A DNA stretch of 26,267 nucleotides from a virus, in the IMG/VR virus record IMGVR_UViG_3300024243_001189, positions 1-26,267 of that record; one strand, written 5' to 3'. This document shows, piece by piece, positions 19 through 21,815 of the stretch. The position numbers and the translations under genes are program-made. The first letter of the stretch is position 1, and every line of letters starts with the position of its first letter. Below the pieces are notes generated by a model. The model saw only the letters and a program-made list of their open reading frames with translations, was not told the DNA's origin and did not search any database.

Positions 19-56
19 TGTGACAGAGTGTGTCGCCGGTGTGCCAGAATGTGTCA
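19..56 (-). promoter_or_regulatory. Four phased TGRCACA-like repeats after the methyltransferase gene
   Basis: Read on the minus strand, four 7-mers follow each other: TGACACA (50-56), TGGCACA (40-46), CGACACA (29-35) and TGTCACA (19-25), with start-to-start distances of 10, 11 and 10 bases, about one helical turn. The first includes the TGA stop of the neighbouring methyltransferase gene. Similar pairs occur in three other intergenic regions (11542-11558, 19197-19212, 21838-21853). This phasing suggests binding sites for a regulator or a phage-specific promoter element, but no -10 box is seen here and the function is an inference. Confidence 0.3.
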
Positions 57-629
57 GGCAGCAGGTTTGTGGGCCATCAGGTTCAAGGAGATGTTTTCCT
101 GGCAGGCATAATCTTGACCCTGCCAGATCGCAGGAATGGATACTGCGTCCCAGGTTTGTATGTCGATGAAGTCTGCTTGGAGGAGGACCTTGGCTAGTTT
201 CTCCCTTGTGAAGCACCACTTGTGACGGTCCCAGTCAGGGGTTGTGGATAGGCAAGGCCCAAACAAGGGATAGTCAGGCTCCGGGCCAAAGTATTCCGGG
301 TCTTCAGGGGAGGTGAGAACACAGCCCAGGAGGACCTTCCTGAGATCAGGGACAGCAAGCCTGAGGATCCCCCCGGGGATCAAGGCCTGTCGTAGTTTGA
401 CCAGCAGAGCCGGAGCCAGATCCGGATATACATGCTCGAGGACATGACTCATGTAGATCTCAGAGAAGTGCCCGAGGGGTAGGTCATCAGCCATGATGTC
501 CACTGCGAATCCTGCAGGGGACTGGCTGAGTCGTCCATCCGTATTGGTATATCCGACCAGGTCTTTACCCCCGCACCCGAGCTGGAGCTTGCTGCCCCGG
601 AGAACCTGATTGAGTCTCGACGGAGGCAT
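54..629 (-). CDS. Class I SAM-dependent methyltransferase
   Basis: A 191-residue small class I methyltransferase. The SAM-binding motif I is LQLGCGGKD at residues 15-23, an acidic residue at the end of the second strand follows in NTDGR (29-33), the post-II motif SHVLEHV lies at 61-67, and GGILRLAVPDLRK at 86-98 is the typical motif III strand of the methyltransferase type 11 group. Proteins like this, with the HVLEH signature, are common in polysaccharide clusters and in phages next to glycosyltransferases. The start ATG (627-629) overlaps the stop of the upstream methyltransferase gene by one base (TAATG), so translation is probably coupled. It is the last gene of the minus-strand operon inside the window. 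The acceptor (sugar, protein or small molecule) cannot be read from the sequence. Confidence 0.85.
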   Translation of the reverse strand: MPPSRLNQVLRGSKLQLGCGGKDLVGYTNTDGRLSQSPAGFAVDIMADDLPLGHFSEIYMSHVLEHVYPDLAPALLVKLRQALIPGGILRLAVPDLRKVLLGCVLTSPEDPEYFGPEPDYPLFGPCLSTTPDWDRHKWCFTREKLAKVLLQADFIDIQTWDAVSIPAIWQGQDYACQENISLNLMAHKPAA

Positions 630-1585
630 TACCGTTGGGGGATGCGCTGGTGCATGACGTCGAGAATGTCTGTTCGGGCGAAGCCGGCAGCTCCTGATGC
701 GACGAGGGAGGGGACTTTGTCCTCAGCGGAACCGATGAACCAGCCGCGGCCGTCAAGTAGGTCCATCTGCTGGCAGTTTTTGAATCCGACCTCCTGCATG
801 ATCTGAAGCCAGGTGTTGCCGGTCGGGATCCACCAGTTCCAACCTACCTGGGAGGGCCCCCGGTACTGAGCGTGGGGGTAGAACTTGTCAGGCAGGGTCA
901 TCGTCTCGAACAACAGCACCCCGCCTGGGCGGAGCATGAGACGGAGGATGGCCAGGGCGCACGCTGGGTCTGAGCAGTGGTAAAGCACTCCCGGACAGTA
1001 GATGACGTCGTAGGTGGCCGACGGGTCCAGCAGGGATGCCTTGGGCATGTCGTACAGGCTGCAGCCGTAGACATTGTCACCCCGGATAGAAAAGACCTCC
1101 TTGTGGCGTTTGGACCAGCTTGCAAAAACCGGGACCTCTTCGACCACATCGACTTCAGCCGCCCCGAAGCCATCGAGGAGCATGACCTCGTAGCCGCACC
1201 AGGCCCCCACTACGCAGCATCTATGGCCCTGGGACAGGGCACGTAGGTCAATCCCGGTCTCTCTGAGCCTGGCCGCATTCAAGAGTCCCCGGGTGTGACG
1301 GGCACCGGCCGCACCTTGGGGGCCCATGGCGCCGATTACCTGAAGGCCTTCTCCGTAGTCATGGTCCTGGTCCCAGGCGTAGCAGTCCAGGGCCGTTCCC
1401 TGGTTAGCCGCCCAGGTCTTGACCCATACATCGGTTGGGTTCTGGTCCACGAAGTCAGAGACTTCCTGTTTGAAAGCTTGGGCTTGTGCATCACCGTGTA
1501 AGTCCCGGATCCGCTGCAGGGAATACCCCCCCATGATCTCCTGCTCGATGGCCACTCCTACTTCGTTCAGACTTCCTTGTCTCAT
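629..1585 (-). CDS. SAM-dependent methyltransferase, CmoB/DUF1698-like
   Basis: A 318-residue protein with a roughly 120-residue N-terminal extension ahead of a class I methyltransferase domain. The SAM site appears as VVGAWCGYE (125-133), with an atypical GAWCGYE instead of the usual GCGxG, followed by DVVEE (146-150). YDVIYCPGVLYH (192-203) and RPGGVLLFET (219-228) closely match the pattern of the CmoB / DUF1698 group, which includes tRNA wobble-uridine carboxymethyltransferase and many small-molecule or glycan enzymes. Because it sits among glycosyltransferases, a sulfotransferase and two other methyltransferases, a glycan or sugar substrate is more likely than tRNA, but this is inference. 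The start ATG (1583-1585) has a good GAGGAG site about 9 bases upstream, and a 26-base gap separates it from the TylF-like gene. Confidence 0.8.
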   Translation of the reverse strand: MRQGSLNEVGVAIEQEIMGGYSLQRIRDLHGDAQAQAFKQEVSDFVDQNPTDVWVKTWAANQGTALDCYAWDQDHDYGEGLQVIGAMGPQGAAGARHTRGLLNAARLRETGIDLRALSQGHRCCVVGAWCGYEVMLLDGFGAAEVDVVEEVPVFASWSKRHKEVFSIRGDNVYGCSLYDMPKASLLDPSATYDVIYCPGVLYHCSDPACALAILRLMLRPGGVLLFETMTLPDKFYPHAQYRGPSQVGWNWWIPTGNTWLQIMQEVGFKNCQQMDLLDGRGWFIGSAEDKVPSLVASGAAGFARTDILDVMHQRIPQR

Positions 1586-1611
1586 TGCCTTGCTCCTCGA
1601 TTATGGAGTTG

Positions 1612-2355
1612 TCAGTTCTTGATCCAAAAAACAGGTCCCCCACCTTCGGGGATCGGGATGATCTCTGGGTCCTCTTGCCGTATCTCGAGGTATTCCTCGA
1701 TGGCCTTACGACAGCCCCGCAATGCGTAGTCGTCGATGATGACAATCCCACCAGACTGGACCAAGTCGATGAGGGGCCAACACGCCTTGGTTGACTCATA
1801 CAGATCTCCATCAAGCCTGAGCAGGGCGATCTGACGAATTGGGGGGTGGCCGATTTTATCCCCCGAGTGGATGGCCTCACGTATGGTTTGCTGAAACCAC
1901 CCCTCGTACAGTGTGAATATCTGGGCAGGCATCCCCCTGGCCTCGAGGTTTTGATGCACCGCCGCCGCAGAGCATGCGCTGATACCAGAAGTCACAAGGG
2001 CGCCATCCTTGCCATGGGAGAACAAGGTGTTGTCAATGTTGTCTGTGTCTTCCGGTCCCGCATGAGGGATCCCTTCGAAGCTGTCAAGCAGGTGAAAGTG
2101 GTGCTGAGGACTCGGTCCGGCTCCGGCGCCGCGCCACATGGCGATGACCTGTCCACCTGCGAACACACCGCACTCCACGATGTCACCAGCAATACGGTGA
2201 GCAGCAACATGCCGGGCCAGTGCCCAGGAGGATAAGAGGGTGGGTCTGGTAGACAGACACAGGGGGCCGACGTTGGAGATGAGCCAGTTCTGTTCCTCCT
2301 CAGGAGGCCAGTTGTCAGAGAGGATCGAGGGCAGCTCTTTTGAATTAGAATTCAT
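1612..2355 (-). CDS. TylF/macrocin O-methyltransferase-like enzyme
   Basis: A 247-residue enzyme of the TylF (macrocin O-methyltransferase) family, which methylates sugar hydroxyls using SAM and a metal. Visible family signatures are VECGVFAGG (60-68, SAM loop), LLDSFEGIP (89-97), LLRLDGDLYESTK (178-190, with metal-binding type acidic residues) and GGIVIIDDY (202-210, the conserved IDDY). Length is normal for the family. I chose ATG 2353-2355 because AAGG lies about 6 bases before it; an in-frame ATG at 2395-2397 would add 14 residues but lies deep in the sulfotransferase gene. With the chosen start, the first 11 bases overlap the end of the sulfotransferase gene. Among glycosyltransferases, methylation of a glycan sugar is the likely role. 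Confidence 0.85.
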   Translation of the reverse strand: MNSNSKELPSILSDNWPPEEEQNWLISNVGPLCLSTRPTLLSSWALARHVAAHRIAGDIVECGVFAGGQVIAMWRGAGAGPSPQHHFHLLDSFEGIPHAGPEDTDNIDNTLFSHGKDGALVTSGISACSAAAVHQNLEARGMPAQIFTLYEGWFQQTIREAIHSGDKIGHPPIRQIALLRLDGDLYESTKACWPLIDLVQSGGIVIIDDYALRGCRKAIEEYLEIRQEDPEIIPIPEGGGPVFWIKN

Positions 2356-2932
2356 AGTTTGCCTTGAGAAGTTCATCCCCAAAGAGTTCCTCCACACGAA
2401 GGATCATCTTCGGTTCAGTGTAATAAGACCGATACCCTGGTCGACGGGTGGACCTATTAATATGGGGGAGGGCAGGCATGTCGGTACCAGCCAGCTCACA
2501 AAATGCCTTCAGGTCATTGGCGAGGATTTCAAATCGGAGAATTTTGTCAACGATGCAGGTCCCTTGCACATCCATGAGGAATTCGTGCATGTGCAATGGG
2601 CGACTGGTTGTACTCCCTGTTGATTCTGGTTCAGACAGCCAATGGGTTGGGCATCCATGGGTGACCCAGGCTTCAAAAGAGAGATGCTGATAGATGTGGG
2701 GCGCAATGTTGGCACCCCGGCAAAAGTGGTAGAAAGAGACCAGTCGGTCGAAGGGGTTACGGATGATCGAGAAGGACAAGCCTTCTCTCCAGGTTTTCTC
2801 CCCAACCCTGTCGCGTATGGTCCGTGCTGGGAGATGATTGTGAGTTTCATCTACCAGACCTTGAAATGCTTGATAGATGCTTCGTGTCCCGGTCCTGGGG
2901 ATGGAGACGAAGAACAGTTTTGGAGGACTCAT
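2345..2932 (-). CDS. Sulfotransferase family protein
   Basis: A 195-residue PAPS-dependent sulfotransferase of the Sulfotransfer_2 type. The 5'-phosphosulfate loop is FFVSIPRTGTRSIY (7-20) and the 3'-phosphate motif is FSIIRNPFDRLVSFY (54-68), which has the RNPxxRxxSxY pattern of carbohydrate sulfotransferases. The substrate is most likely a sugar hydroxyl. The protein is short for the family, but both cofactor motifs are intact. I chose ATG 2930-2932, four bases after the TGA of the upstream gene and with a GAGGA site about 10 bases before it; an in-frame ATG at 2998 would add 22 residues inside the upstream gene. Sulfotransferases are uncommon in phages, so the combination with glycosyltransferases and methyltransferases is notable. 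Confidence 0.8.
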   Translation of the reverse strand: MSPPKLFFVSIPRTGTRSIYQAFQGLVDETHNHLPARTIRDRVGEKTWREGLSFSIIRNPFDRLVSFYHFCRGANIAPHIYQHLSFEAWVTHGCPTHWLSEPESTGSTTSRPLHMHEFLMDVQGTCIVDKILRFEILANDLKAFCELAGTDMPALPHINRSTRRPGYRSYYTEPKMILRVEELFGDELLKANYEF

Positions 2933-2936
2933 ATTA

Positions 2937-3650
2937 TCAGATTCCTCTGATGTGCCACTGTCGAATGTCGTCCTGTGGGGTCGGGTAGGTTGAGCCATAG
3001 AGGAACGTGTTGGGAGGCAGGGGTTTGAGGCCCAGACGCTTGGCGAGTACTGTCATCGCAGGCATGTCATGGCGGTGACCTTGTACTCTCTCGTCGTCGC
3101 TGACAAAGCCCTGGGCCTTTCGCCAGGGCCCACACACTACTTCCGGATTCTGCATCATTTCACACATGCCCTTCAGGAAGGCATTCCCTGATGGATGGCT
3201 GGGGTTAACCCCCCAGATTCCGCCAGCGACGATAGGCTCAGCCATAGCCTGTTCTCGAGTCCAACCAAAAACCTTGAGTGCCCGGTCACTCGTCCAGTGC
3301 CCCATACAGCCACTCTCCTGGACAAGATAGACTCCGGTGCGTTCCAGCTCCCTAAAGACGGGCTCCAACGACCTACCTGGCCAGACGGAGGAATCCAGCC
3401 AGATGACCCCTGCTGGGGCCACATCTTTGTTTGCTTGGATAATGGTGGCAGCCTGATCTACGGCATAGGTTTTGAAGGCGTAAGGGAGTTGCTGGTGTGG
3501 GGGACAACCTGCGGGGAGAGTGTGTCTCCAGAGCATTTTCATGCCTCGGTAGTCCACACGGTCAAGTTCGAGACTCAACCGAGACACACCTGAAGCGTAG
3601 TTGCCGTTAACACCAATAGAGATGATGGCTCGATGACTGGGGGGAATCAT
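2937..3650 (-). CDS. Putative glycosyltransferase-like protein with HRHD motif
   Basis: A 237-residue protein. It has an early strand (IISIGVNGNY), PYAFKTYAVDQA (56-67), VIWLDSSVWP at about 82-91 (a strand ending in an acidic LDSS, comparable to the DxD region of GT-A enzymes), GGIWGVN at about 143-149 and GHRHDMPAMTVLAKRLGL at about 191-208. The order of acidic strand, GG-IWGVN and HRHD-x-A is what I recall from phage and cyanobacterial proteins resembling nucleotide-sugar transferases. I cannot assign a family with certainty. The neighbours (three-domain glycosyltransferase upstream, sulfotransferase downstream) support a glycan role. GGGAG lies about 11 bases before ATG 3648-3650, which follows the preceding stop after 6 bases. 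Confidence 0.55.
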   Translation of the reverse strand: MIPPSHRAIISIGVNGNYASGVSRLSLELDRVDYRGMKMLWRHTLPAGCPPHQQLPYAFKTYAVDQAATIIQANKDVAPAGVIWLDSSVWPGRSLEPVFRELERTGVYLVQESGCMGHWTSDRALKVFGWTREQAMAEPIVAGGIWGVNPSHPSGNAFLKGMCEMMQNPEVVCGPWRKAQGFVSDDERVQGHRHDMPAMTVLAKRLGLKPLPPNTFLYGSTYPTPQDDIRQWHIRGI

Positions 3651-3656
3651 TAGTGT

Positions 3657-6600
3657 CTACTCCCTACCAAGGATGGTAGTTCCACGGTGATGGCGAACGA
3701 TGGCGAGGAACATCTCTACGACAGCCTCCCAGGACCACCAACGATAGGCCAGAGCTTTTACGTCTCTGCGCATCTGCTCCTTGAGTTTGTCCATCTCTGG
3801 ATCCTGTCCGGGGGGCTTGGCCCATGTTTTGGCCAGGGCCAGAAGTTCGGAAGGCGTCCCCCAACACAAGGCATGCTTTCCGTCGACAATTCCCCAATGC
3901 TCTTGTCCCTTGAACCGTTGCAAGGCGATGCATGCACTGGCCGCCCCAAGTCTATTGAGGCGGTCCGAACTGTAAGCCGTTAGGTCCGGGGTAATCGAGG
4001 CGTTCACACTCAGGGCCGCAAGGTTGTAGACTGCGGGACAAGCTGCTCGGGGAATTGAGCCGAGTGTTTGGTCTGGTGTCCAACCGCTGCCGAAGATGAA
4101 GATGCCCTGCGGGTCGTGATTGAAAAGGGCTTCGATGCTGGACGTTCGAAGGTCGTAGTCGTAGGTTCTGGACCCGATGAAAACCGACGACCCTTGGAGT
4201 ACTTCTTGGCTGACCTTCATCGGGATTCGATCTGGATCTGTCTGGTCATCGATCCCGATGTCGTAACCCACCTGGAGGTACCCGGGATGAGGGACTTCGT
4301 GCTGGGCAAGCATACGGCAGTAATCGATGTTGCTCTGGAGGCATAGGTCTGCGGCGCGGCCCGTGTCCAACATCCAACGGGTTGGCCGGGGATACCATTC
4401 CTGTCGAACATCCCCATTCCATGTTGCGATGACAGCTCCTGGGGCGCACAACTTTCTGAGCTGCTGGATGAACTCCGCTGTCCCCAGGAATCCTTCATCG
4501 TCCTGAATCTGGTACCAGACCAATGTAGGCCGCAGCTGTCGTGCAGCCTCGAAGATCGCCTGAGCCCGAACCTTTGGGCCAGCTGCTGCAAGGTCTCCAC
4601 GAAGCCGAAGAACCTCTACTGTTTTGCCTATACGGCCGAAGGCCTCACGTAGGCCGATCTGGAGCTCAGCCTCGTGGGCCAGGGGTAGAAGTAGGAGTCG
4701 CTCTTCAGGCCCTGCCGGAATAGGAGAACGCCTGGGCATCTTCCCTGGCTCCGGGACGAGAAGTCGGGGCCACCAATCCCCCGGTGGGGTTGCGTCCAGG
4801 CGGGTAACCAGTCTGTCCAAAGAACCATCCCCATGTTTGGGGCCATACGCTCTGACGTTCTTTCGTCGGAGTCCGTCAGGAACCTGGTGGTCGATAGCCC
4901 GGATCTCCCCGGGAAAGTATTGTGCCCGACGTCCAGCTTTGACCAGTGCAGCTCCCTGCAAGGTGTCACCGGCGTATGTCCTATCGATACGATATTGACT
5001 GTCCCCCCAGAAACCTCCGATGAGCGTGGCCACATCCTCCAAGGCATTCCGTCTGGTCAAGGCGATATTGGGGTGGGCCGACTCGTTGAGGATCGACCTG
5101 AGTGCACCGGTGTGGTGGGGGGCAATCCAGTTGTCCCCCCCATCCGTTGAAAACTCGAAGCATACCTGGTCCAAACCTGGATCTTGGTCCAGACGATCTA
5201 CTGCCTTACGTAGGGACCCCGGGACCAACTCCACATCGTCATTGGCTTGGAATACGTACTGCCCACAGCTTGCCTCGTAGGCGAGATTGAAGGCATCAAT
5301 AGCCCCGGTCAATCCGCCGTGGACCACCCTGCAATCAGGTTGTTCTTTGAGCCATTCCAGAGTCCCATCTGTACTGCCTCCGTCACTCAGGATGAACTCA
5401 AATGGGCATGGGTCCATAACCTTGAAGTCTGCCCGGATGCTCCGTACCATACGCTTGAGGCTCTCCAGCCTGTTATATGTCCCGGAGATGACGGAGATCC
5501 GGACAGGTCCTGGCTGGGTCGGTCCTTTGAAGATGAAGGGGAGGTGGGCCTGAGGGACACGTCCATCACCATCGAGAAAACCTGTGTACTCTTGCCGTCT
5601 CCTGAGTTGATCACGCTCCGTCAGAAGCTTACGCATCAATTCTGAATCTTCTGGGCTGCGACTCGGAACCTGATTTACCACAACAGGGATAGTTGCAGAT
5701 CCTTCGGGGGCCGAAGGGGGGGGAACATGGTGGTGCGCTGGGCTCCCCCGGTGGGCTGCTATTCGAAGCGCCTCACCAAGACACTCCCGCCAGTTCGACA
5801 TGACATGGTGCCAGGTCCATTTATTACGGATGGCTGCCGCGGCCCGGTCCGCCATGTCCTGCAGCTCTTGACGCGGCCTGCGCCTGAGGTCCTCGATGAC
5901 CGCACACAGATGGTCGACGGTCCGTTCAGGGAGCAAACGGCCGAAGTCCTCATTGATGGCCAGCTGGGCTGAGCCCACCTTGGTGGAGGTAGGGATGCAA
6001 CCGCAGGACATACCCTCGAAGATCGGGAAGGGGCCCCCTCCCTCTCCCTTGGACATACAGACGATGACCCCGATCTGGTTGTAGAACTCGGGCATCTTGT
6101 AATGAGGCCAGGCTTGTTGTCCAGGCTGGGCGGTTGAGCTGTCGAGGATTGCGTGGGGGACCTTACAACGTTCGACTGCCTCCCGAAACATCCCTAGTCC
6201 CTTGTAGTCCTCCATGCCACCGACGGCTGGATTCATCCGTTGGCTGTTGCCCGTCCACCCGAAGACCAGGTCCCCTTTTGGTAGGGGGGTCTGGGCAAAC
6301 AGGTCCGGATTGACACCGTTTGGAGTCACGATGATTGGGGGGAGGGCCTGCCCCTTGGCGAGCCTGACGATGTCATCCCGGACCATCTCGTTCCCGACTG
6401 CCAGGATGTCTGTGCAGCGCAACGTAGCCAAGAACTTGGGGCTGAGTCTCCCATTCGGGCCAAGGAAACTCATATGGTCGTCCACGCAAGACACCACGGC
6501 ACCGGGTCGCATAACCGATTTGAGCCTGGGGGTATCGAAGTGCCACAACGAGATCAGGACGCTGTCTGGTTCCACCCTCTTGTCCATGTCTCGGCCGAGA

Positions 6601-6704
6601 CAGATGTTCACTCCATCCACCATGTCCTGAAAGCCCCTGCACATCTCCCGGGCCTTGGCATGGAATACAGAATCAGGCAGATCGATGGTGAGGTAGGCTT
6701 TCAT
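3657..6704 (-). CDS. Three-domain glycosyltransferase (GT4-like, GT2-like, CgeB-like)
   Basis: A 1015-residue protein with three apparent glycosyltransferase modules. Residues about 1-315 look like a GT-B, GT4-type enzyme: VTPNGVNPDLF (126-136), FGWTGNSQR (148-156) and EGGGPFPIFEGMSCGC (221-236), where the two glutamates are nine apart rather than the usual eight. A Pro/Ala/Ser-rich and charged linker follows (about 318-395). Residues about 402-620 are a GT2 A-fold domain: RISVISGTYNRLESL (402-416), FILSDGGSTDGTLEWL (437-452) and the DxD-like QANDDVE (486-492). Residues about 665-1005 resemble CgeB/spore maturation-type GT-B proteins (TWNGDVR at 761-767, FGSGW at 871-875). ATG 6702-6704 has GGAG about 9 bases upstream. 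Probably a multi-step enzyme adding several sugars; donor and acceptor are unknown. Confidence 0.8.
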   Translation of the reverse strand: MKAYLTIDLPDSVFHAKAREMCRGFQDMVDGVNICLGRDMDKRVEPDSVLISLWHFDTPRLKSVMRPGAVVSCVDDHMSFLGPNGRLSPKFLATLRCTDILAVGNEMVRDDIVRLAKGQALPPIIVTPNGVNPDLFAQTPLPKGDLVFGWTGNSQRMNPAVGGMEDYKGLGMFREAVERCKVPHAILDSSTAQPGQQAWPHYKMPEFYNQIGVIVCMSKGEGGGPFPIFEGMSCGCIPTSTKVGSAQLAINEDFGRLLPERTVDHLCAVIEDLRRRPRQELQDMADRAAAAIRNKWTWHHVMSNWRECLGEALRIAAHRGSPAHHHVPPPSAPEGSATIPVVVNQVPSRSPEDSELMRKLLTERDQLRRRQEYTGFLDGDGRVPQAHLPFIFKGPTQPGPVRISVISGTYNRLESLKRMVRSIRADFKVMDPCPFEFILSDGGSTDGTLEWLKEQPDCRVVHGGLTGAIDAFNLAYEASCGQYVFQANDDVELVPGSLRKAVDRLDQDPGLDQVCFEFSTDGGDNWIAPHHTGALRSILNESAHPNIALTRRNALEDVATLIGGFWGDSQYRIDRTYAGDTLQGAALVKAGRRAQYFPGEIRAIDHQVPDGLRRKNVRAYGPKHGDGSLDRLVTRLDATPPGDWWPRLLVPEPGKMPRRSPIPAGPEERLLLLPLAHEAELQIGLREAFGRIGKTVEVLRLRGDLAAAGPKVRAQAIFEAARQLRPTLVWYQIQDDEGFLGTAEFIQQLRKLCAPGAVIATWNGDVRQEWYPRPTRWMLDTGRAADLCLQSNIDYCRMLAQHEVPHPGYLQVGYDIGIDDQTDPDRIPMKVSQEVLQGSSVFIGSRTYDYDLRTSSIEALFNHDPQGIFIFGSGWTPDQTLGSIPRAACPAVYNLAALSVNASITPDLTAYSSDRLNRLGAASACIALQRFKGQEHWGIVDGKHALCWGTPSELLALAKTWAKPPGQDPEMDKLKEQMRRDVKALAYRWWSWEAVVEMFLAIVRHHRGTTILGRE

Positions 6705-6765: not shown

Positions 6766-7128
6766 TTACGGAGCGGGAGTGGCTGTGAAGTTGGCCACAC
6801 CGTGTGCACCACCGGCCGAGTCGTACTGGATGAGGATCATGTCGCCGTTGTGCTGATCCTGGATCTGGAACTCGTCGACCTGCAGGCCCTCGGTGGCGGA
6901 AAACTTCATGTAGGGACCCTCGCCGTAGTACTCGCCCGGCCCGGCAACCGCGGCGTGAGAGCCGAGGTTCAGGGTGTCGGTGTCGATGATCGCCAGGATC
7001 GCATTGACCGCGGTGCGGATGGTGTTGAAGCGACTGACCAACGAACCAGGGTAACGGCCGGTGAAGATCAGCGCCCCCTTGTTGAAGGCGTTGTTTGCAA
7101 GCAGGGGAAGCGGGGTAATGGCGCCCAT
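6766..7128 (-). CDS. Small virion-like protein at the head of the glycan operon
   Basis: A 120-residue protein that I do not recognise by family. It opens MGAITPLPLLANNAFNK, has a helical stretch FNTIRTAVNAILAIIDTDTL and a beta-rich second half (YMKFSATEGLQVDEFQI, GDMILIQYDSAGG). Its codons are overwhelmingly C-ending and Gly GGG is rare, like the capsid, sheath and tube genes and unlike the enzymes beside it, which suggests an abundant product. A strong AAAGGAG site (7139-7145) lies about 10 bases before the start, directly after a stem-loop. A structural or decoration protein is the best guess, and it could be the acceptor of the glycan pathway encoded downstream; that is inference. Confidence 0.65.
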   Translation of the reverse strand: MGAITPLPLLANNAFNKGALIFTGRYPGSLVSRFNTIRTAVNAILAIIDTDTLNLGSHAAVAGPGEYYGEGPYMKFSATEGLQVDEFQIQDQHNGDMILIQYDSAGGAHGVANFTATPAP

Positions 7129-7248: not shown

Positions 7249-7533
7249 CTACTTCACCCGGACATCGATGGTCAATAAGGACGGCAGACTTTTGAGTTCA
7301 TCGGGGATGGTTGTACCCCCCAATATGAGCAGGCCCGGACTCGAGGCCTCCTGGGTTTGGTAACGGGCCTGGAGGGTACAGAGCCTCTTGTGCTCAGTGA
7401 CAACCTGAGTAAAGGCGCGCTTCATACTCATGCCCGTTCTGGAGCCGGTGGACATCTCGATGATCTCGAGGAGTATCTCACGAGCGCCTGGCTCAACCTC
7501 GATGGTACAACCTCGTTTACGCTTGTGTGCCAT
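7249..7533 (-). CDS. Small basic protein in the divergent intergenic region
   Basis: A 94-residue open frame lying between the two divergent gene clusters. The N-terminus is basic (MAHKRKRGCTIEVEP), followed by a strand-helix-helix pattern (TIEVEPGAREILLEIIEMS, then MSMKRAFTQVVTEHKRL) that vaguely recalls ribbon-helix-helix proteins; I cannot assign a family. There is no clear Shine-Dalgarno site before ATG 7531-7533. A sigma70-like promoter (7546-7574) would give a very short leader or a leaderless message. Its position and charge would suit a small regulator of the divergent clusters, but a chance open frame is not excluded. Confidence 0.5.
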   Translation of the reverse strand: MAHKRKRGCTIEVEPGAREILLEIIEMSTGSRTGMSMKRAFTQVVTEHKRLCTLQARYQTQEASSPGLLILGGTTIPDELKSLPSLLTIDVRVK

Positions 7534-7545
7534 AACTGGGCTTGA

Positions 7546-7574
7546 ACGGTAGCAAGCAAGTCGGTGAGAGTCAA
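7546..7574 (-). promoter_or_regulatory. Sigma70-like promoter for the minus-strand operon
   Basis: On the minus strand: -35 TTGACT (7569-7574), a 17-base spacer and -10 TACCGT (7546-7551). The -35 matches five of six bases; the -10 matches only three of six. Initiation would fall a few bases before the ATG at 7533, giving almost no leader. It is the only candidate I found for the start of the leftward operon. Confidence 0.35.
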
Positions 7575-7650
7575 CAGAGTTTGCGGGGGTACTGACGATT
7601 CTGTGACACGGGGTTGCCGGGGGGGATTTGTGGTGGTAACGTGGCTGGTC

Positions 7651-9561
7651 ATGAGGGATCTCAAAGACCGAATCAGTACGGCACGTGGGGGCAAGCAGGC
7701 GGTGTCCCCAGATGGTGCAACAGGGATGCCCAGCGGGACCCGAGAGGTTAGTGCCGGGGATATGGATGCCGGGGTCGCGGAGGAGTCTGGGCCCCCCGTC
7801 AACATCCAGCGGGTAGGAATGCAGACTTCAGCAATGGAACCTGCTGAGACTGCAGAGCCGGCGGAATGGTATGGCTCCTACGCTGACGGACGCCGCTACA
7901 TCTCCCCCATCCAGTCCGACACTGATGCCGATCTGCTCATCCGGAACTCCTGGGTAATTTCCGGTGTGATCTCGGCCTACCTGGACAATGTGTATGGGCG
8001 GCGCCCCTATGCAGTGCCCAAGGCTGACCCGATGACCCCGGAGGGTAAGCAGACCATTCGGCAGTGGATGCGGATGCAACGAGTCAAGGCCGGGAGCACC
8101 GATAAGTCCTGGCTCGACATCAAGGATTCTGCCCTCGACAAGGTGTGTAGGCAGATCGATGCACGAGTAGAGCTGGAGTCTGCCCTGGTCGACGGGTTTT
8201 TTGCGACTTGTCAGGTGGACCTCCCATACGATCAGATGGCCTCCTTGGCCGGCTACGATCTCGAGGTGAGAGGGCGTACCTTCTTGGAAGTCCTGCGGGA
8301 TGCTCCTGGTGGCAAGCCTGTTGGGATGGTGTGGTCCCCTGCCCGTTTCATCAGAGTTGAGCCCCCAAGCCCTGCGGTCGGGTTCTCTGATCTGATGGTC
8401 CACAACCCATTGGTTTACGAGAAGAACTTCAGGTTTCGTAGGTTCGTAGGGTGCTTCCAGTCTGCAAGCGCCAATGCTGTGAGTCCGGTGGCCTTCTTTA
8501 AGGACTTTGGTGACCCGCGGGTGCGTAGTCGCAGTGATGGACGATACTACGAGACCATGGACCAGCTGCTTGCCCGAGAAATGGGGGAGGAAGTTGGGGG
8601 GTACGGGGGAAACAAGCAGCGCCGCTGGCCTGTCGGGACACCATCCACTGAGATCGTCCGGATGGTGCATACGGCGCCCTGGGCTGCCCTGACGGGGATG
8701 GCCCCTTGGTACTCCACCAAGACAGAGCTCCTCGGGATCCGAGAGTGCGCCCAGGAGAATCGGGGCTTGCTGTCGGGCCAGTTGGTCCCTCTGCTCCTCT
8801 GGATGATCCACGGGGGGCAGCGCATCACCCCGGACCAGACAGAGCTGTGGCAAAAGGATTTGCAGGCTGCTGTCAAGCCTGGCGAACGTTCGGTCGTCAT
8901 CATGCAGGTCATGTCCGACGCAATGGCTCGAGCAGGCAGTCGGGGGGCTGGGGAGCCCAAATCATCCATTGTCAACACCCGGCCGGCTCAGCAGGAAGAT
9001 GCCCTGGCCATGAAGTACACCGAGCAGAGCTACCGGACTGCTCTTCGGGCCTACCGGATGAACCGGGCAGCCCTCGGGGATTTCGAGGGGATGACCCAGC
9101 AGGAAATCCAGGAGGCCCTTCGGTATACTGAAACGCAGGTCTATGGTCCTCGTGGTGAGTCCTGGTGTGCCGGATTGCAACCTATTGTGGATGACCTGGG
9201 TTTGTTGGCTACTCGACTCGAGCGGCCAACCCGGGCTTCTCTGGCCTTGGGGGAGTTGTCTGAGATCCTCGAGCGGTTGGGGAAAGAGAACTTTATTACC
9301 CCTGAACAGGCCTGGCCTACGGTACGCCGAGCCATGAAGGATCTGGGGAGGATTGTCCAGGACAAGGGGCAGTGGAGTAAGTATCCCCGGCGGGTTGTTG
9401 ACGGATTCATGATGGCTCGTGTCCCGCAGGCCGCGGGTAAGTTCATGGGTTTGGATGCCAAGTACATGCCTCCTATTGAGGCCACCGACAAGATGGACGG
9501 GAACAATAAGGGTCCGGTTGTACCGGCTCCGGCACCTGTGGAGGACCCCGAAGATGAGTAA
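7651..9561 (+). CDS. Portal protein
   Basis: The portal forms the dodecameric ring at the capsid vertex through which DNA enters and leaves and to which the tail attaches. With the start used here it has 636 residues. The region after about 300 has the pattern of PBSX/HK97-type portals: EIVRMVHTAPWAALTGMAPWY (about 334-354), then TELLGIRECAQENRGLLSGQL and a hydrophobic LLLWMIHGG. The C-terminal part is helical and ends in an acidic Pro/Ala tail. The gene heads the head-gene module, followed by protease, scaffold and capsid, the classic order. Start choice is uncertain: ATG 7651 lacks a good ribosome-binding site. In-frame GTG codons at 7564, 7630 and 7633 are alternatives; the stretch from 7564 reads as Cys/Arg-rich and not protein-like. 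Confidence 0.85.
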   Translation: MRDLKDRISTARGGKQAVSPDGATGMPSGTREVSAGDMDAGVAEESGPPVNIQRVGMQTSAMEPAETAEPAEWYGSYADGRRYISPIQSDTDADLLIRNSWVISGVISAYLDNVYGRRPYAVPKADPMTPEGKQTIRQWMRMQRVKAGSTDKSWLDIKDSALDKVCRQIDARVELESALVDGFFATCQVDLPYDQMASLAGYDLEVRGRTFLEVLRDAPGGKPVGMVWSPARFIRVEPPSPAVGFSDLMVHNPLVYEKNFRFRRFVGCFQSASANAVSPVAFFKDFGDPRVRSRSDGRYYETMDQLLAREMGEEVGGYGGNKQRRWPVGTPSTEIVRMVHTAPWAALTGMAPWYSTKTELLGIRECAQENRGLLSGQLVPLLLWMIHGGQRITPDQTELWQKDLQAAVKPGERSVVIMQVMSDAMARAGSRGAGEPKSSIVNTRPAQQEDALAMKYTEQSYRTALRAYRMNRAALGDFEGMTQQEIQEALRYTETQVYGPRGESWCAGLQPIVDDLGLLATRLERPTRASLALGELSEILERLGKENFITPEQAWPTVRRAMKDLGRIVQDKGQWSKYPRRVVDGFMMARVPQAAGKFMGLDAKYMPPIEATDKMDGNNKGPVVPAPAPVEDPEDE

Positions 9562-12886: not shown

Positions 12887-13837
12887 ATGGCTGTCATCGA
12901 AGGCACTGACCAGCGGCCGGTCTACGCCAAGAAGGCCGACGTGGAGATTGCTCAGTTCGCCGCGGGTGGCGAGCTGGTGCGTGAGCAGGTGCGCGACTAC
13001 TTCCTGGTGGCCATCGCCGGCCAGGCAATGATGGAGAAGGTGCGTAACGTCATCATGCCTCGGGACCAGGTCGAATACCCGATCATGAAGCCGTTCGGCG
13101 AGGATGTGTGGCATCCCGTCGCCGAGTACCAGTCCCTGGCTGAGGGTCAGCGCGTGCGCCCGACCTTCGACCAGACCATCTTCACCGCCAAGGAGATCAT
13201 GTGCGAGGTGCGTTACCCCAAGCACGCGCTCCAGGTGCAGGTGGAAGAGGGCCGGTTCAAGGACACCCTGCTGACCTACCTGGGTCTGCACACCAAGGGC
13301 GGCTGGGAGAACCTGATCATCCAGGGCGACACCGCCGCGGGCGCCACTCCGTTCCTCCGTATGTTCAACGGGATGATCGCTGGCGTGACGAGCTACTCGT
13401 TCGATGCGCTGGGTGCCACGCTGGGCAGTTCCCTGCTCCGTACGGCCCGCTTCACGCGGCCCGTCCAGTACCGCGTGGAGGACAAACAGAATCTCGGCGT
13501 GTTCTGCACCGAGGAGACTCAGGACGGCTACGACGAGGAGCTGCGCAACCGGAACACCGAGCAGTCTGACGCCCGCCTGATCAACGGCGAGTCGTACCCG
13601 GCCTTCAAGAACCGGCCGGTCATCGATGTCCCCCGCTGGCCCAGCGCCGGTGGCCAGTGTGACGCGCTGGACTGCAACCCGGGCCGCTTCGTGTTCGGGC
13701 TCCGTGAGGCCATCGGCGTGGAGACCGAGTGGGACCCCCGCCAGCGTTCCCTGTCGGTCATCATGAATGCCTGGATCAGCGAGGGCTGGATCTTCGAGGA
13801 GATGGAGGTCAAGATCGAGAACCTGGCCAGCACGTAA
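12887..13837 (+). CDS. Major capsid protein (HK97 fold)
   Basis: A 316-residue main shell protein. There is a helical N-arm (ADVEIAQFAAGGELVREQVRD), then FTAKEIMCEVRYPKHALQV at about 99-117, as in the E-loop and following region of HK97-like capsids. A helix LLTYLGLHTKGGWENLIIQGD at about 127-147 resembles the P-domain spine helix region, and the A-domain half ends MNAWISEGWIFEEMEVKIENL. Length is typical for unprocessed HK97-fold capsids without a large delta domain. Codon use is strongly C/G-ending, as expected for the most abundant virion protein, and the leader carries a hairpin and a strong AAGGAG. The place after protease and scaffold agrees. The capsid identity rests on synteny, codon use and general pattern rather than on one invariant motif. 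Confidence 0.8.
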   Translation: MAVIEGTDQRPVYAKKADVEIAQFAAGGELVREQVRDYFLVAIAGQAMMEKVRNVIMPRDQVEYPIMKPFGEDVWHPVAEYQSLAEGQRVRPTFDQTIFTAKEIMCEVRYPKHALQVQVEEGRFKDTLLTYLGLHTKGGWENLIIQGDTAAGATPFLRMFNGMIAGVTSYSFDALGATLGSSLLRTARFTRPVQYRVEDKQNLGVFCTEETQDGYDEELRNRNTEQSDARLINGESYPAFKNRPVIDVPRWPSAGGQCDALDCNPGRFVFGLREAIGVETEWDPRQRSLSVIMNAWISEGWIFEEMEVKIENLAST

Positions 13838-19563: not shown

Positions 19564-19634
19564 GAGAGCCTTTGGTCTGGTAGGCAGACAACTGCTCGTT
19601 GACCAAGGGTCGGCGACTCGAGGAGTATAACACC

Positions 19635-21302
19635 ATGCGTAACGGTCGCAGCCGCGTTGACAACAAGTGGCAGTCCAGCAATCTGCGGTCCATGCCCAAC
19701 AGGGAGTTCGGGGTAACCCAGCTCCTTGGGGTGTTCGAATGGGGGCCTGAGGAAGTAACGGCGGTCACCTCCTTCGACGACTTCAAGCTCAAGTACGGCG
19801 GCTTCTCGGTGGACTACCATGCCGCCCTGCATGCCTACTTGTACTTCGCCATGGGCGGTACCAAGCTGTGGGTCAAGAGGGTGTTCCACTACCTCAACCA
19901 CACATCGGACATCGACCCCCTCACAGCTGCCAAGGGGACCGTTACGTTGGTCTCTGGCGCTGCGGGCCCCTACGGCGTCCAGAATACCCTGCGGGCCGAT
20001 GGCTTGTACTATGGAGACCTGGCCCTGACTGTGCAGCCTGTCGCTGCGCAGAGCGGCCTGGCGGGCTACTTCGACCTGCTGGTATTCCACCCCCGTGAGA
20101 TTCAGCCCATCGAGTGGATTCGCAACGTGACCATGGATTCCACCTCGAACGACTACGTGGAGGACGTGGTCAACACCAGCGCCCGGCGCAGCAACTACGT
20201 CAAGGTCACCGATCTGTTGGCCAGTGGCACCGTAACGCAACGTATGCCCGCGGCCCTGGGATCTGCTGTGGCGTTGGTGGGTGGAGATGATGGATTGGCA
20301 GCCCTCGTGGATGCCGACTACGTCGGGGGCACCGCCGGCCGGACCGGTCTGTATGGCTTCCAGCTGGTCAACGAAGGCAACATGATGTTGGTGCCGGATG
20401 GTCTGTCCTCCACGGTCCAGAACGCCGCCATCTCGTACTGTGAGAACTACCAGTACAAGCAGGAAAAGGTCATCTACATCCCAGAGACGCAGGCTGGTCT
20501 AGGGTATCTGGCCGCGGTGGCGCAGTATTCGGCATTGACCGGGAGCCGGGCGAAGACCGGCATGGCTTGGCCGCGGGTGCGAATCACCAATCCCGACAAG
20601 ACAGTCTTCGGCCTGAACAACGACAACATCGTGTGCGGCTACGGCGGCCTGCTCGCCGGTCTCATCTGCGGTCAGTCCAAGCGGTACCTGGCGCAGATGG
20701 CGGTCAACCCGTCGAACCAGGATTTCGGATGGCTCAATGACATGGTGGTCGGGCTCGAAGGGGCCGACGACAAGCATGAAGTCCTGGACCCCAACGTCCA
20801 GAACTATGTCACCGACTACGGGATCAACCCGATCCTGTTTGGCCGGCATGAGAGGACTGGTCGCTACGGTGCCTGGTTCAACGACTGTCAGTCCGGCGAG
20901 GATGTGACTACGGAGCTGGAGCTCGAGAGTATTGGCAACCAGATGCTCTGCTCGCACCTTCGCTACCGGCATACCGCTTTCCTGGAGCGCCACCGTACCC
21001 AGGGCAACTCCAAGCGGCGTCGGGGGATCATCCAAAAGGCTCTCATCGAGGACAACAAGTACTGGACCTCTCTGGGTGTCTTCGCATCTGACAGTGCCAA
21101 CGAGGCGTTCTTCGTCAATGTGGACCCCGAGGGCGAGAACATCAACAACGCGGTGGTGCAGCGCCAGCAGAAGCTGGTGGTCAAGGAGGGCTTCGCTTTT
21201 GCCTCCCCCGCCCGCTTCGTGGACTTGTACTTCACCAGAGACAATCGCGCCGTCGAGAGCTACATGTCTCAGGCGGCCAAGGCTGCCGGCATCGCAGGAT
21301 AA
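19635..21302 (+). CDS. Contractile tail sheath protein
   Basis: A 555-residue sheath protein, whose subunits surround the tail tube and contract to drive it through the cell envelope. The N-terminus has the usual pattern of a short arm followed by FGVTQLLGVFEWGPEEVTAVTSFDDFKLKYG, where a region like GPxxxPxxxTSxxDFxxxFG is characteristic of sheaths, and LHAYLYFAMGGTKLWVKRV. The C-terminal domain shows KTGMAWPRVRITNPD, SLGVFASDSANEAFFVNVDPEGENINNAV and KLVVKEGFAFASPARFVDLYFTRD, the conserved C-terminal sheath handshake region. Codon use is C/G-rich. ATG 19635 is chosen because GAGGAG lies 9 bases upstream; the frame is open 12 codons further upstream. The tube gene follows after 24 bases. Confidence 0.9.
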   Translation: MRNGRSRVDNKWQSSNLRSMPNREFGVTQLLGVFEWGPEEVTAVTSFDDFKLKYGGFSVDYHAALHAYLYFAMGGTKLWVKRVFHYLNHTSDIDPLTAAKGTVTLVSGAAGPYGVQNTLRADGLYYGDLALTVQPVAAQSGLAGYFDLLVFHPREIQPIEWIRNVTMDSTSNDYVEDVVNTSARRSNYVKVTDLLASGTVTQRMPAALGSAVALVGGDDGLAALVDADYVGGTAGRTGLYGFQLVNEGNMMLVPDGLSSTVQNAAISYCENYQYKQEKVIYIPETQAGLGYLAAVAQYSALTGSRAKTGMAWPRVRITNPDKTVFGLNNDNIVCGYGGLLAGLICGQSKRYLAQMAVNPSNQDFGWLNDMVVGLEGADDKHEVLDPNVQNYVTDYGINPILFGRHERTGRYGAWFNDCQSGEDVTTELELESIGNQMLCSHLRYRHTAFLERHRTQGNSKRRRGIIQKALIEDNKYWTSLGVFASDSANEAFFVNVDPEGENINNAVVQRQQKLVVKEGFAFASPARFVDLYFTRDNRAVESYMSQAAKAAGIAG

Positions 21303-21326: not shown

Positions 21327-21815
21327 ATGGGTCAGCAGGCACGATCAAGAGAGCTGGCAGGACAGTACAACTTCCTTGTGGAGGACCTGTCGGGCGGCCT
21401 GAGCAACTCGAAGTATCGGGACGTGTCCGGCGGCGACGTCAACTTCGAGATCGCGCTGAACCGTGAGGGCGGTGCGGTCTACGCCCAGAAGATGGCAACC
21501 ATCGCCAATGTGGACGACATCACATTGTCGGTGGGTCTCATCCCCAGCGGCGGGGAGATGTACGACTGGCTGTTGGAGAACTGCGATGTACTGGCCAGTA
21601 TGCCGGAGGGGGCTGGAGTAGACGATCCATACAACCTGCGCACCCTGGCCATCGCTGGGTTGAGCAGGGGCCGGCGCGACCTGATCGCCTGGAACTGTCA
21701 CAACTGCCAGGTCGCAGGTTATCCCATGTTCCAGTTCGACAACAACTCCGGTGACATCCTCATCGAGCAGCTCATCCTCGCTTACGAGTACCCCACCGTC
21801 GAGTTCCTCGGCTGA
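21327..21815 (+). CDS. Tail tube protein
   Basis: A 162-residue tube protein of the gp19-like type, which stacks in hexameric rings inside the sheath. Visible features are YNFLVEDLSGGLSNSKYRDVSGGDVNFEIALNREGG (given here as two pieces: YNFLVEDLSGG, then FEIALNREGG), the strand ITLSVGLIPSGGEMYDWLLE at about 66-85, DLIAWNCHNCQVAGYPMFQF and the closing ILIEQLILAYEYPTVEF, which is the typical final strand. Length is normal for the family. AAGGAG lies 8 bases before the ATG. Codon use matches the other abundant virion genes. Directly after the sheath gene, the identification is secure in context. Confidence 0.85.
   Translation: MGQQARSRELAGQYNFLVEDLSGGLSNSKYRDVSGGDVNFEIALNREGGAVYAQKMATIANVDDITLSVGLIPSGGEMYDWLLENCDVLASMPEGAGVDDPYNLRTLAIAGLSRGRRDLIAWNCHNCQVAGYPMFQFDNNSGDILIEQLILAYEYPTVEFLG

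Follow-up and report, generated by a model that had tools for sequence, protein, structure and literature searches.

We identified a six-gene cassette on the minus strand of a 26,267-nucleotide stretch of viral DNA (the window; IMG/VR record IMGVR_UViG_3300024243_001189, positions 1 to 26,267). Our preferred reading, which we regard as evenly balanced between right and wrong, is that the enzymes of the cassette work in the cytoplasm and decorate virion proteins with a glycan that is sulfated and O-methylated and is made from host donors. The observations behind it are the presence of the genes, the integrity of their motifs, the fold of one of the products (X237), the linkage of the same kinds of gene in other phages, and the finding of related sulfotransferase genes next to virion genes at four loci. 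Glycan clusters in phages are not new in themselves; what is new is X237 and the context of sulfation. X237, an unclassified protein that matched no library searched and yet has a confident predicted fold, is what is truly discovered here.

The six open, abutting reading frames occupy positions 54 to 6704. A first-pass annotation of the sequence had described six tightly linked minus-strand genes with overlaps and gaps of 26 bases or less, and the coordinates confirmed this. From the preferred starts, the intergenic distances are 6 bases between the glycosyltransferase (GT) gene and X237, 4 between X237 and the sulfotransferase (ST) gene, −32 between ST and TylF, 26 between TylF and MT318, and −1 between MT318 and MT191. 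The same DNA is present in three records. A 114-kb contig contains the window at 100% identity, apart from a single 60-base difference in copy number within the tape-measure gene, and in this contig the cassette runs past the window edge, with the next same-strand gene 128 bases on. Upstream of the cassette, after a gap of 61 bases, lies a gene for a 120-aa protein (6766 to 7128, minus strand) that matches no family in Pfam or PHROGs; with AAAGGAG ahead of its start and a gene-caller score of 30.3, it is possibly an earlier member of the cassette's transcription unit. A promoter and terminator scan was uninformative (2 found versus 4.2 expected and 14 versus 10.8, respectively), and a search for paralogues within the phage's own called proteins recovered the self-matches and nothing else at an E value of 1e-2.

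The largest product is a multidomain glycosyltransferase of 1,015 aa (3657 to 6704, minus strand) with GT group-1-like and GT2 regions. It had been called a three-domain enzyme, and two of those domains stand, with Pfam scores of 63.5 bits for Glycos_transf_2 (cutoff, 23.3) and 31.1 bits for Glyco_trans_1_2 (cutoff, 25). The recognized domains span residues 198 to 305 (GT group-1-like; 125 to 309 by PHROG) and 404 to 566 (GT2). The third is unproven: the last 365 residues matched nothing by family search, PDB sequence, or profile alignment, and the structure of this C-terminal third, when modeled from its sequence alone, had a pLDDT of 39 and was unusable.

X237 (2937 to 3650, minus strand) had no Pfam, PHROGs, NCBIfam, or PDB-sequence match, and its best PDB-sequence rows (E values of 0.4 and up) were short and unrelated. 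Its AlphaFold model is a confident GT-A fold (pLDDT, 90.6), closest to BoGT6a of family GT6 (4ayj; Z 14.3, 3.5 Å over 199 residues) and to domain 1 of the PBCV-1 capsid-glycan transferase A064R (2p72; Z 14.2), with the rows for A064R and glycogenin tied with GT6 within 1 Z. This is the protein that had earlier been labeled a "second transferase-like protein." As to membership of GT6 by sequence, 30 members of the X237 family gave only two stray Pfam matches, each in a single member, and no PDB sequence by profile. The DxD motif of classical metal-dependent GT-A enzymes is missing from the window X237, which reads WLDSS there. The family motif pattern matched 61 of 76 dereplicated viral members, 6 of them with DxD and 55 without the second Asp, leaving 15 unmatched. 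From the model we predict X237 to be a glycosyltransferase of a type not yet classified; a scan of viral contigs found 147 X237 relatives, and the type occurs in many phages. The family is not phage exclusive: at least three bacterial MAG contigs carry X237 in surroundings that look chromosomal, a lower bound, since the narrower pattern used for the bacterial scan was found in only 27 of the 76 viral members. Given its recurrence in viral contigs, confident fold, and defined partner genes, the X237 family would help annotate many "hypothetical" phage genes.

Three methyltransferases follow. The TylF-type sugar O-methyltransferase (1612 to 2376, minus strand) scored 99.4 bits against Pfam TylF (PF05711; cutoff, 23), has PDB relatives (5i10/4cdz, NovP, and mycinamicin III methyltransferase), and retains the residues of DGDLYEST and DDY (D196, D198, D222, D223, and neighbors) that are invariant with two aligned PDB fragments, all in keeping with its first assignment. 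Its start options are 2376 (ATG, with GGAGG upstream), 2397 (GTG), and 2355. Two more SAM methyltransferases had been proposed, and the proposal held outright for one of them. MT318 (629 to 1585, minus strand, 318 aa) is a class I SAM methyltransferase whose C-terminal half resembles CmoB, with 39.5 bits for Methyltransf_23 (cutoff, 27) and 27.7 bits for Methyltransf_9 (DUF1698; cutoff, 23.8) over profile positions 177 to 267 of 315 only. We rejected CmoB itself as an identity for MT318, as the CmoB equivalog models gave 45.1 and 42.6 bits against cutoffs of 275 and 209. MT191 (54 to 629, minus strand, 191 aa) fell below every Pfam cutoff by itself (best, Methyltransf_23 at 19.1 bits versus 27). 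We count it as a probable class I SAM methyltransferase chiefly because of relatives at 27 to 32% identity in L127, L128, L120, and L105 (each about 1 kb or less from X237), L080, and L195, where the relative adjoins a sulfotransferase; the L105 relative scored 34.7 bits for Methyltransf_11, above the cutoff.

The sulfotransferase gene (2345 to 2932, minus strand) probably starts at 2932 instead of 2998, because two homologues (L171 and L178) begin at the same place, which gives a protein of 195 aa. The protein matched Sulfotransfer_2 (PF03567) at 28.4 bits (cutoff, 22) and phrog_3347 with an E value of 3e-11. We take PRTGT to be its 5' PAPS motif and RNPxxRxxS its 3' motif; the PRT and RNPxxRxxS residues are invariant across three aligned phage homologues (the window ST, L171, and L178), the latter two of which were detected by Pfam profile only. 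The claim of a sulfotransferase with intact PAPS motifs therefore survives, and from its sequence the enzyme is predicted to be a PAPS-dependent carbohydrate sulfotransferase.

The kinds of gene in the cassette also occur together in other phages, which along with the family, motif, and fold evidence supports the proposal of a glycan-building set with sulfation and methylation. We compared loci drawn from the best 80 of 339 TylF relatives and the best 80 of 147 X237 relatives, so the association figures describe best matches. After dereplication there were 79 X237 loci, of which 76 are viral; the 3 bacterial loci lack TylF. Of the 76 viral loci, 74 had one or more of the listed glycan or methyltransferase companions, and 50 had an FkbM-type methyltransferase within 4.5 kb. 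TylF occurred anywhere in the fetched locus in 45 of the 76, a figure inflated by the scan design because 34 of the 76 representatives carry TylF-scan identifiers; taken by itself and before dereplication, the X237 scan had TylF in 33 of its 78 loci, always on the same strand, and the TylF scan by itself had X237 in 40 of 78. A portal-, terminase-, or connector-like neighbor lay within 4.5 kb in only 23 of the 76 X237 loci, some of these labels being weak or made by reading, and phage genomes are dense in genes. Within the TylF- and X237-scan loci, phmmer at an E value of 1e-3 found no match for MT318, GT_M, GT_C, ST, or the proteins of 120 and 94 aa, and two for GT_N (L117 and L118; 20.4 bits).

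PF03567 was found in 3 of 50 records searched (of 77 first sought), our own included; the other two are X237 phages with a sulfotransferase gene near X237. In L171 the sulfotransferase gene is directly next to X237, and the cassette is flanked by neck/connector reading frames (phrog_5 and phrog_2595) on one side and a major tail protein gene (phrog_158) on the other, all on a single strand. In L108/L178 it is just ahead of TylF (188 bits) and a GT2_4-type gene. We also assembled 17 sulfotransferase loci from 24 non-self loci, leaving out L183, L186, L187, L196, and L200 (identical) and setting aside L202 and L204 (which match L201 at 97.5% over 3.8 kb and at 88.9% over 2.1 kb, respectively). 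A glycan neighbor was absent from 9 of the 17 by Pfam and the profiles built here; a glycan or methyltransferase neighbor was present in the other 8, by Pfam in L181, L189, and L198 and by our profiles in the remaining five, with the best neighbor match in L185 being to a companion family without a Pfam match. Only 3 of the 17, plus L171 from another scan, were shown to lie beside a recognized virion gene, the remainder having been read by eye. In L189 and L198 a related sulfotransferase comes after the major head protein (phrog_9953 and phrog_1328) and is followed by a GT, in L189 also by a methyltransferase, and in L181 it precedes a tail fiber. The phages of these four loci (L171, L181, L189, and L198) share no virion-protein match with the window phage. 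The first-pass annotation had left open whether the glycan was placed on the virion or the host surface; the gene position in these four relatives favors the virion. The window cassette itself lies on the strand opposite to the head and tail genes, outside those modules.

We infer the catalytic activities, donor sugars, order of steps, acceptor, and benefit as follows. The enzymes would be soluble, cytoplasmic, and glycan decorating; with no hydropathy window above 1.8, the six proteins all lack a membrane segment. The large GT and X237 would transfer sugars from host nucleotide-sugar donors to the acceptor. These sugars would then be O-methylated with SAM by the TylF enzyme together with at least one of the other two methyltransferases, and the sulfotransferase would add sulfate from host PAPS to the glycan. 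None of three families searched for donor synthesis by the phage itself (Epimerase, NTP_transferase, and APS_kinase) had a match anywhere in the 114-kb contig, which may be incomplete. The likeliest acceptor would be one of the virion proteins of the phage (the capsid, the tail tube, or a fiber-like protein whose gene lies just downstream), and it would be modified ahead of assembly or in the course of it. The result would be a particle coat that alters recognition, adsorption, or stability. Possible acceptors in the window, all encoded on the plus strand, are the probable major capsid protein (12887 to 13837; phrog_1623, virion structural protein, E value of 3.8e-31), which matched 41 phage records by tblastn, among them several with a major capsid protein annotation, and the tail tube protein (21327 to 21815; phrog_4542, E value of 2.2e-07). 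Also on this strand are a divergent head-module gene without a PHROG or Pfam match, possibly the portal by position only (7564 to 9561), and a gene for a tail-sheath-like protein (19599 to 21302; phrog_15814, of unknown function in PHROGs), called sheath from its position before the tube gene.

The cassette might instead act during infection on a polysaccharide of the host surface (LPS, capsule, or EPS), remodeling it so that superinfection is blocked or the host altered; we consider this rather unlikely. Passages of PMC7824862 describe cyanophage and jumbo-phage GTase clusters that are variable, hold several GT families, include O-methyltransferases in some variants, and are read as modifying host polysaccharide; by this account the earlier remark that phages are known to carry single glycosyltransferases was an understatement. 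Soluble GTs serve host-polysaccharide pathways too, and some X237 relatives come with sugar-nucleotide genes: an Epimerase-type gene in 16 of the 76 viral loci, and GLF, NeuB, and CTP_transf_3 among 114 neighbor representatives covered by Pfam (of 145 listed, from 342 neighbor clusters). However, those described clusters include sugar-nucleotide synthesis, whereas the contig of the window phage gave no match to the Epimerase or the NTP_transferase family, its six proteins lack membrane segments, and its cassette has a sulfotransferase, a word absent from the main text of PMC7824862. The related sulfotransferases that adjoin virion genes in four loci also speak against a host target.

We think it quite improbable that the enzymes act on a small molecule or another non-virion, non-envelope target or are acquired host cargo with little function. 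The structurally solved TylF enzymes belong, by name, to antibiotic pathways, and a lower G+C content at 2001 to 3000 (0.537; all other 1-kb steps fall at 0.566 to 0.640), together with low codon scores of the ST, X237, and MT191 genes, hints at recent acquisition; against this, all six frames are open, the checked motifs are intact, the DNA is common to three records, and similar gene combinations recur in other phages. Hypermodification of phage DNA bases by GTs and tailoring enzymes, a use of virus-encoded GTs that is in print (Pyle et al. 2024, by its title), is very improbable here, because X237 accompanies FkbM/TylF methyltransferases and GT genes and the TET/JBP, cytosine-C5 methylase, and thymidylate synthase families all lack a match in the 114-kb contig.

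Decoration of the virion has partial precedents. In chlorovirus PBCV-1, A064R and A061L likewise combine a virus-encoded multidomain transferase with sugar O-methyltransferases to give a methylated virion glycan, as parts of a review describe (PMC9614988). That virus infects algae and the third domain of A064R is a methyltransferase, whereas the window phage is tailed, has separate genes, and includes a sulfotransferase, a word that does not occur in the main text of the review. Mycobacteriophage GTs glycosylate capsid and tail tube proteins (Freeman et al. 2023, cited in PMC12363180 and PMC12619734); sulfation and TylF methylation go unmentioned in the relevant passages of the two citing papers. 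OM43 phages, Synechococcus phage S-SRM01, and estuarine viruses also carry sulfotransferases (portions of PMC10580990 and PMC12285232), those of the OM43 phages being Sulfotransfer_3, whereas the window ST sits in a glycan cassette. A passage of PMC10580990 states that the function of sulfotransferases in phage genomes is unclear, and sulfation of a virion glycan would be a concrete, testable answer.

The first-pass annotation knew of no described phage system with this exact set, and we found none among the close single-protein scans and the loci fetched. Scans of viral contigs with GT, ST, and X237 for relatives of the whole set returned just two further records, both from this virus, and tblastn against phage records gave one GT match covering 10% in two records and no match for the other five enzymes. 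More broadly, and tentatively at somewhat under an even chance, we suggest that virion-glycan cassettes marked by X237, as a new GT-A family in which DxD is mostly missing, occur in many tailed phages, and that some of them add sulfate to form a negatively charged, sulfated, O-methylated coat on the capsid or tail. Such a charged, methylated coat, if real, would bear on phage survival, adsorption, and recognition. The window TylF enzyme belongs to the same sequence family as NovP and mycinamicin III 3''-O-methyltransferase, which act in antibiotic biosynthesis as opposed to a phage glycan cassette, and it also shares conserved residues with NovP.

All six minus-strand open reading frames (ORFs) of the cassette at 54-6704 lie where the first-pass annotation placed them, with inter-gene gaps of -32 to 26 bases. 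Pfam supported the annotation's reading of them as glycan-building, sulfating and methylating enzymes for four products that passed its curated cut-offs, namely, the large glycosyltransferase (GT), the TylF methyltransferase and one protein each of the Sulfotransfer_2 and Methyltransf_23 families; the 191-aa methyltransferase (MT191) fell below the cut-offs. The large GT had been described as having three domains, of which Pfam supported two, a GT-group-1-like and a GT2 region, while its last 365 residues matched no family or PDB entry and gave a structure model with a pLDDT of only 39. The sulfotransferase probably starts at 2932, because the N termini of two homologues align there and the overlap with the adjacent ORF, X237 (2937-3650), disappears. 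G+C content falls to 0.537 at window positions 2001-3000, under the sulfotransferase and TylF genes, compared to 0.566-0.640 in the other 1-kb steps, a local drop that hints at recent acquisition of this stretch.

Neither the family libraries (Pfam, PHROGs and NCBIfam) nor PDB sequences gave a match to X237. Thirty members of its family gave only stray single-member matches (two in Pfam and four in PHROGs), and a profile of the family found nothing among PDB sequences. A structure model built from the 30-sequence alignment was confident (pLDDT 90.6, pTM 0.89) and has a predicted GT-A fold. Its closest structural neighbors were effectively tied: the metal-independent enzyme BoGT6a (Z 14.3), the capsid-glycan domain of PBCV-1 A064R (Z 14.2) and glycogenin (Z 13.7). 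Foldseek with the model returned UGGT, LH3, LARGE1 and A064R at E values of about 7e-6 to 3e-4, with TM-scores to the model of about 0.4-0.6, and in a viral structure library uncharacterized phage proteins ranked highest (TM up to 0.77), ahead of other proteins and viral glycosyltransferases. Asp86 and Lys60 are invariant in the 30 sequences, and seven more closely related members share an invariant GHRHD motif. The window's X237 lacks the second Asp of the DxD motif, as do 55 of the 61 dereplicated members (among 76) in which the pattern used for this motif matched. By its predicted fold X237 would be a glycosyltransferase, though probably not a classical metal-dependent one.

Relatives of X237 recur beside similar genes in viral contigs. 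Among loci fetched with TylF (the best 80 of 339 relatives), 40 of 78 carried X237-like ORFs, and all 47 such ORFs were on the TylF strand. When seven X237 sequences were used to scan viral contigs, 147 of 209 pattern matches proved to be relatives; in the loci of the best 80 of these 147, TylF was present in 33 of 78, always on the same strand. Pooling and dereplicating both scans gave 76 viral X237 loci, with TylF in 45 (a count inflated by the scan design), an FkbM-type methyltransferase in 50 and a GT-like gene in 65; at least one listed companion was present in 74. Pfam assigned the FkbM, GT2 and epimerase identities from a single representative of each, and "GT-like" for two frequent families is a reading only, because both lack a Pfam match. 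These two families, typified by L133 5848-6528 (26 of 76 loci) and L028 7917-8669 (24 of 76), resemble glycosyltransferases and may be further unclassified phage families. In four loci (L105, L120, L127 and L128) an MT191-type methyltransferase is at most about 1 kb from X237, and in L195 one is as near to a sulfotransferase. Bacterial homologues are rare: a narrower X237 scan of bacterial and archaeal genomes gave three loci among 38 pattern matches (L173, L174 and L175), all in MAGs titled Phycisphaerales, Synechococcus and Deltaproteobacteria, with surroundings that appear chromosomal.

The sulfotransferase family PF03567 occurred in 3 of the 50 records searched, counting the phage's own. 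In L171, X237 begins at 7983, immediately after the sulfotransferase (7419-7982); neck/connector ORFs (phrog_5, phrog_2595) on one side and a major tail protein (phrog_158) on the other flank this cassette, on a single strand throughout. L108 and L178 are two loci of one 61,153-base record (G030), which is classed as linear although its two ends share an identical stretch of 123 bases; since the sulfotransferase start falls within this terminal repeat, one end reads on into the other, and the contig may be a complete circular map. Before this sulfotransferase come FkbM, a GT-like companion, X237, a second X237-like ORF and, by reading, an aldolase-like ORF, with X237 about 2.4 kb from the sulfotransferase; after it come TylF (188 bits) and a GT2_4-type gene (225 bits).

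Scanning with three sulfotransferases yielded 24 loci besides the phage itself, or 17 once near-copies were removed. Eight (L181, L182, L184, L185, L189, L194, L195 and L198) have a glycan or methyltransferase neighbor and nine have none. L189 (2159-6042) runs from a major head protein through a 145-aa ORF and the sulfotransferase to a GT and a methyltransferase, and in L198 (6656-11028) a major head protein is followed by the sulfotransferase and an 814-aa protein with a GT2 match above and a GT4-like match below cut-off; both are good candidates for capsid glycosylation. L181 places the sulfotransferase between a methyltransferase and a tail fibre. Together with L171, these three are the loci where the sulfotransferase was seen next to recognized virion genes. 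The L193 sulfotransferase ORF (7989-8576) lies, by reading, between an endonuclease-like ORF and apparent tail genes of a T4-like phage, with no glycan neighbors by the profiles built here. Non-cassette proteins of the 114-kb contig, a longer record of the same phage, had no match at E 1e-6 in the sulfotransferase-scan loci, and all but two (a radical SAM protein and one other) were likewise unmatched in the TylF and X237 loci, so the phages carrying these loci are not close kin of the window phage.

In the simplest model, the cassette enzymes would work in the cytoplasm on a cytoplasmic acceptor, with host nucleotide sugars feeding the two GTs, host SAM the methyltransferases and host PAPS the sulfotransferase. 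A hydropathy scan found no membrane segments in the six proteins, and the 114-kb contig had no match to Epimerase, NTP_transferase or APS-kinase, nor to TET/JBP, C5-methylase or thymidylate synthase. We give a virion protein about an even chance of being the acceptor, favored because of gene position in L171, L189, L198 and L181 and because of precedent: mycobacteriophages are reported to glycosylate their capsid and tail tube (PMC12363180, PMC12619734), and PBCV-1 uses A064R and A061L to build its methylated capsid glycan (PMC9614988). Two points count against a virion acceptor: phage GT clusters have been interpreted as modifying the host surface (PMC7824862), a reading that we consider less likely here, and in the window the cassette strand is opposite to that of the head genes. 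Genes for the capsid protein (phrog_1623), tail tube (phrog_4542) and tape measure protein (phrog_1533) are all on the plus strand, as is a sheath-like protein that precedes the tail tube, from which a contractile tail is likely. Past the window edge, in the 114-kb contig, the cassette strand continues with a 122-aa protein, a 420-aa protein that resembles a tail fibre by reading and has no Pfam match, and then small proteins, three with hydrophobic segments; among these three, the one of 254 aa also has a lysozyme-like match below threshold. Given these same-strand neighbors, the cassette is apparently part of a gene run with late-type functions; a promoter scan was uninformative.

Phage glycan clusters (PMC7824862), TylF as a listed phage auxiliary gene (PMC8940887) and phage sulfotransferases (PMC10580990, PMC12285232) are each known separately, and what is new here is the enzyme combination and the X237 family. 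Searches of an open-access collection with few subscription journals turned up no paper that ties sulfotransferases of phages to glycan cassettes or to virion genes.

The window, 26,267 bases long, is a complete IMG/VR virus record. Two longer records, of 42 kb and 114 kb, are identical to it over its first 16,704 bases; beyond these, it aligns with the 114-kb record as two blocks at 100% identity, with a single 60-base difference in copy number within the tape-measure gene. The extra copy in the 114-kb record, at window positions of about 23774-23846, reflects strain variation or an assembly effect. Record G002 encodes the phage's B12-binding radical SAM protein (L012 461-1705, by Pfam) and a 1223-aa ORF (L010 6619-10290) whose start, by reading, resembles an intein (HINT) domain. 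A relative of the radical SAM protein, at 23% identity (L016 11415-12368), lies in the X237/TylF locus L016.
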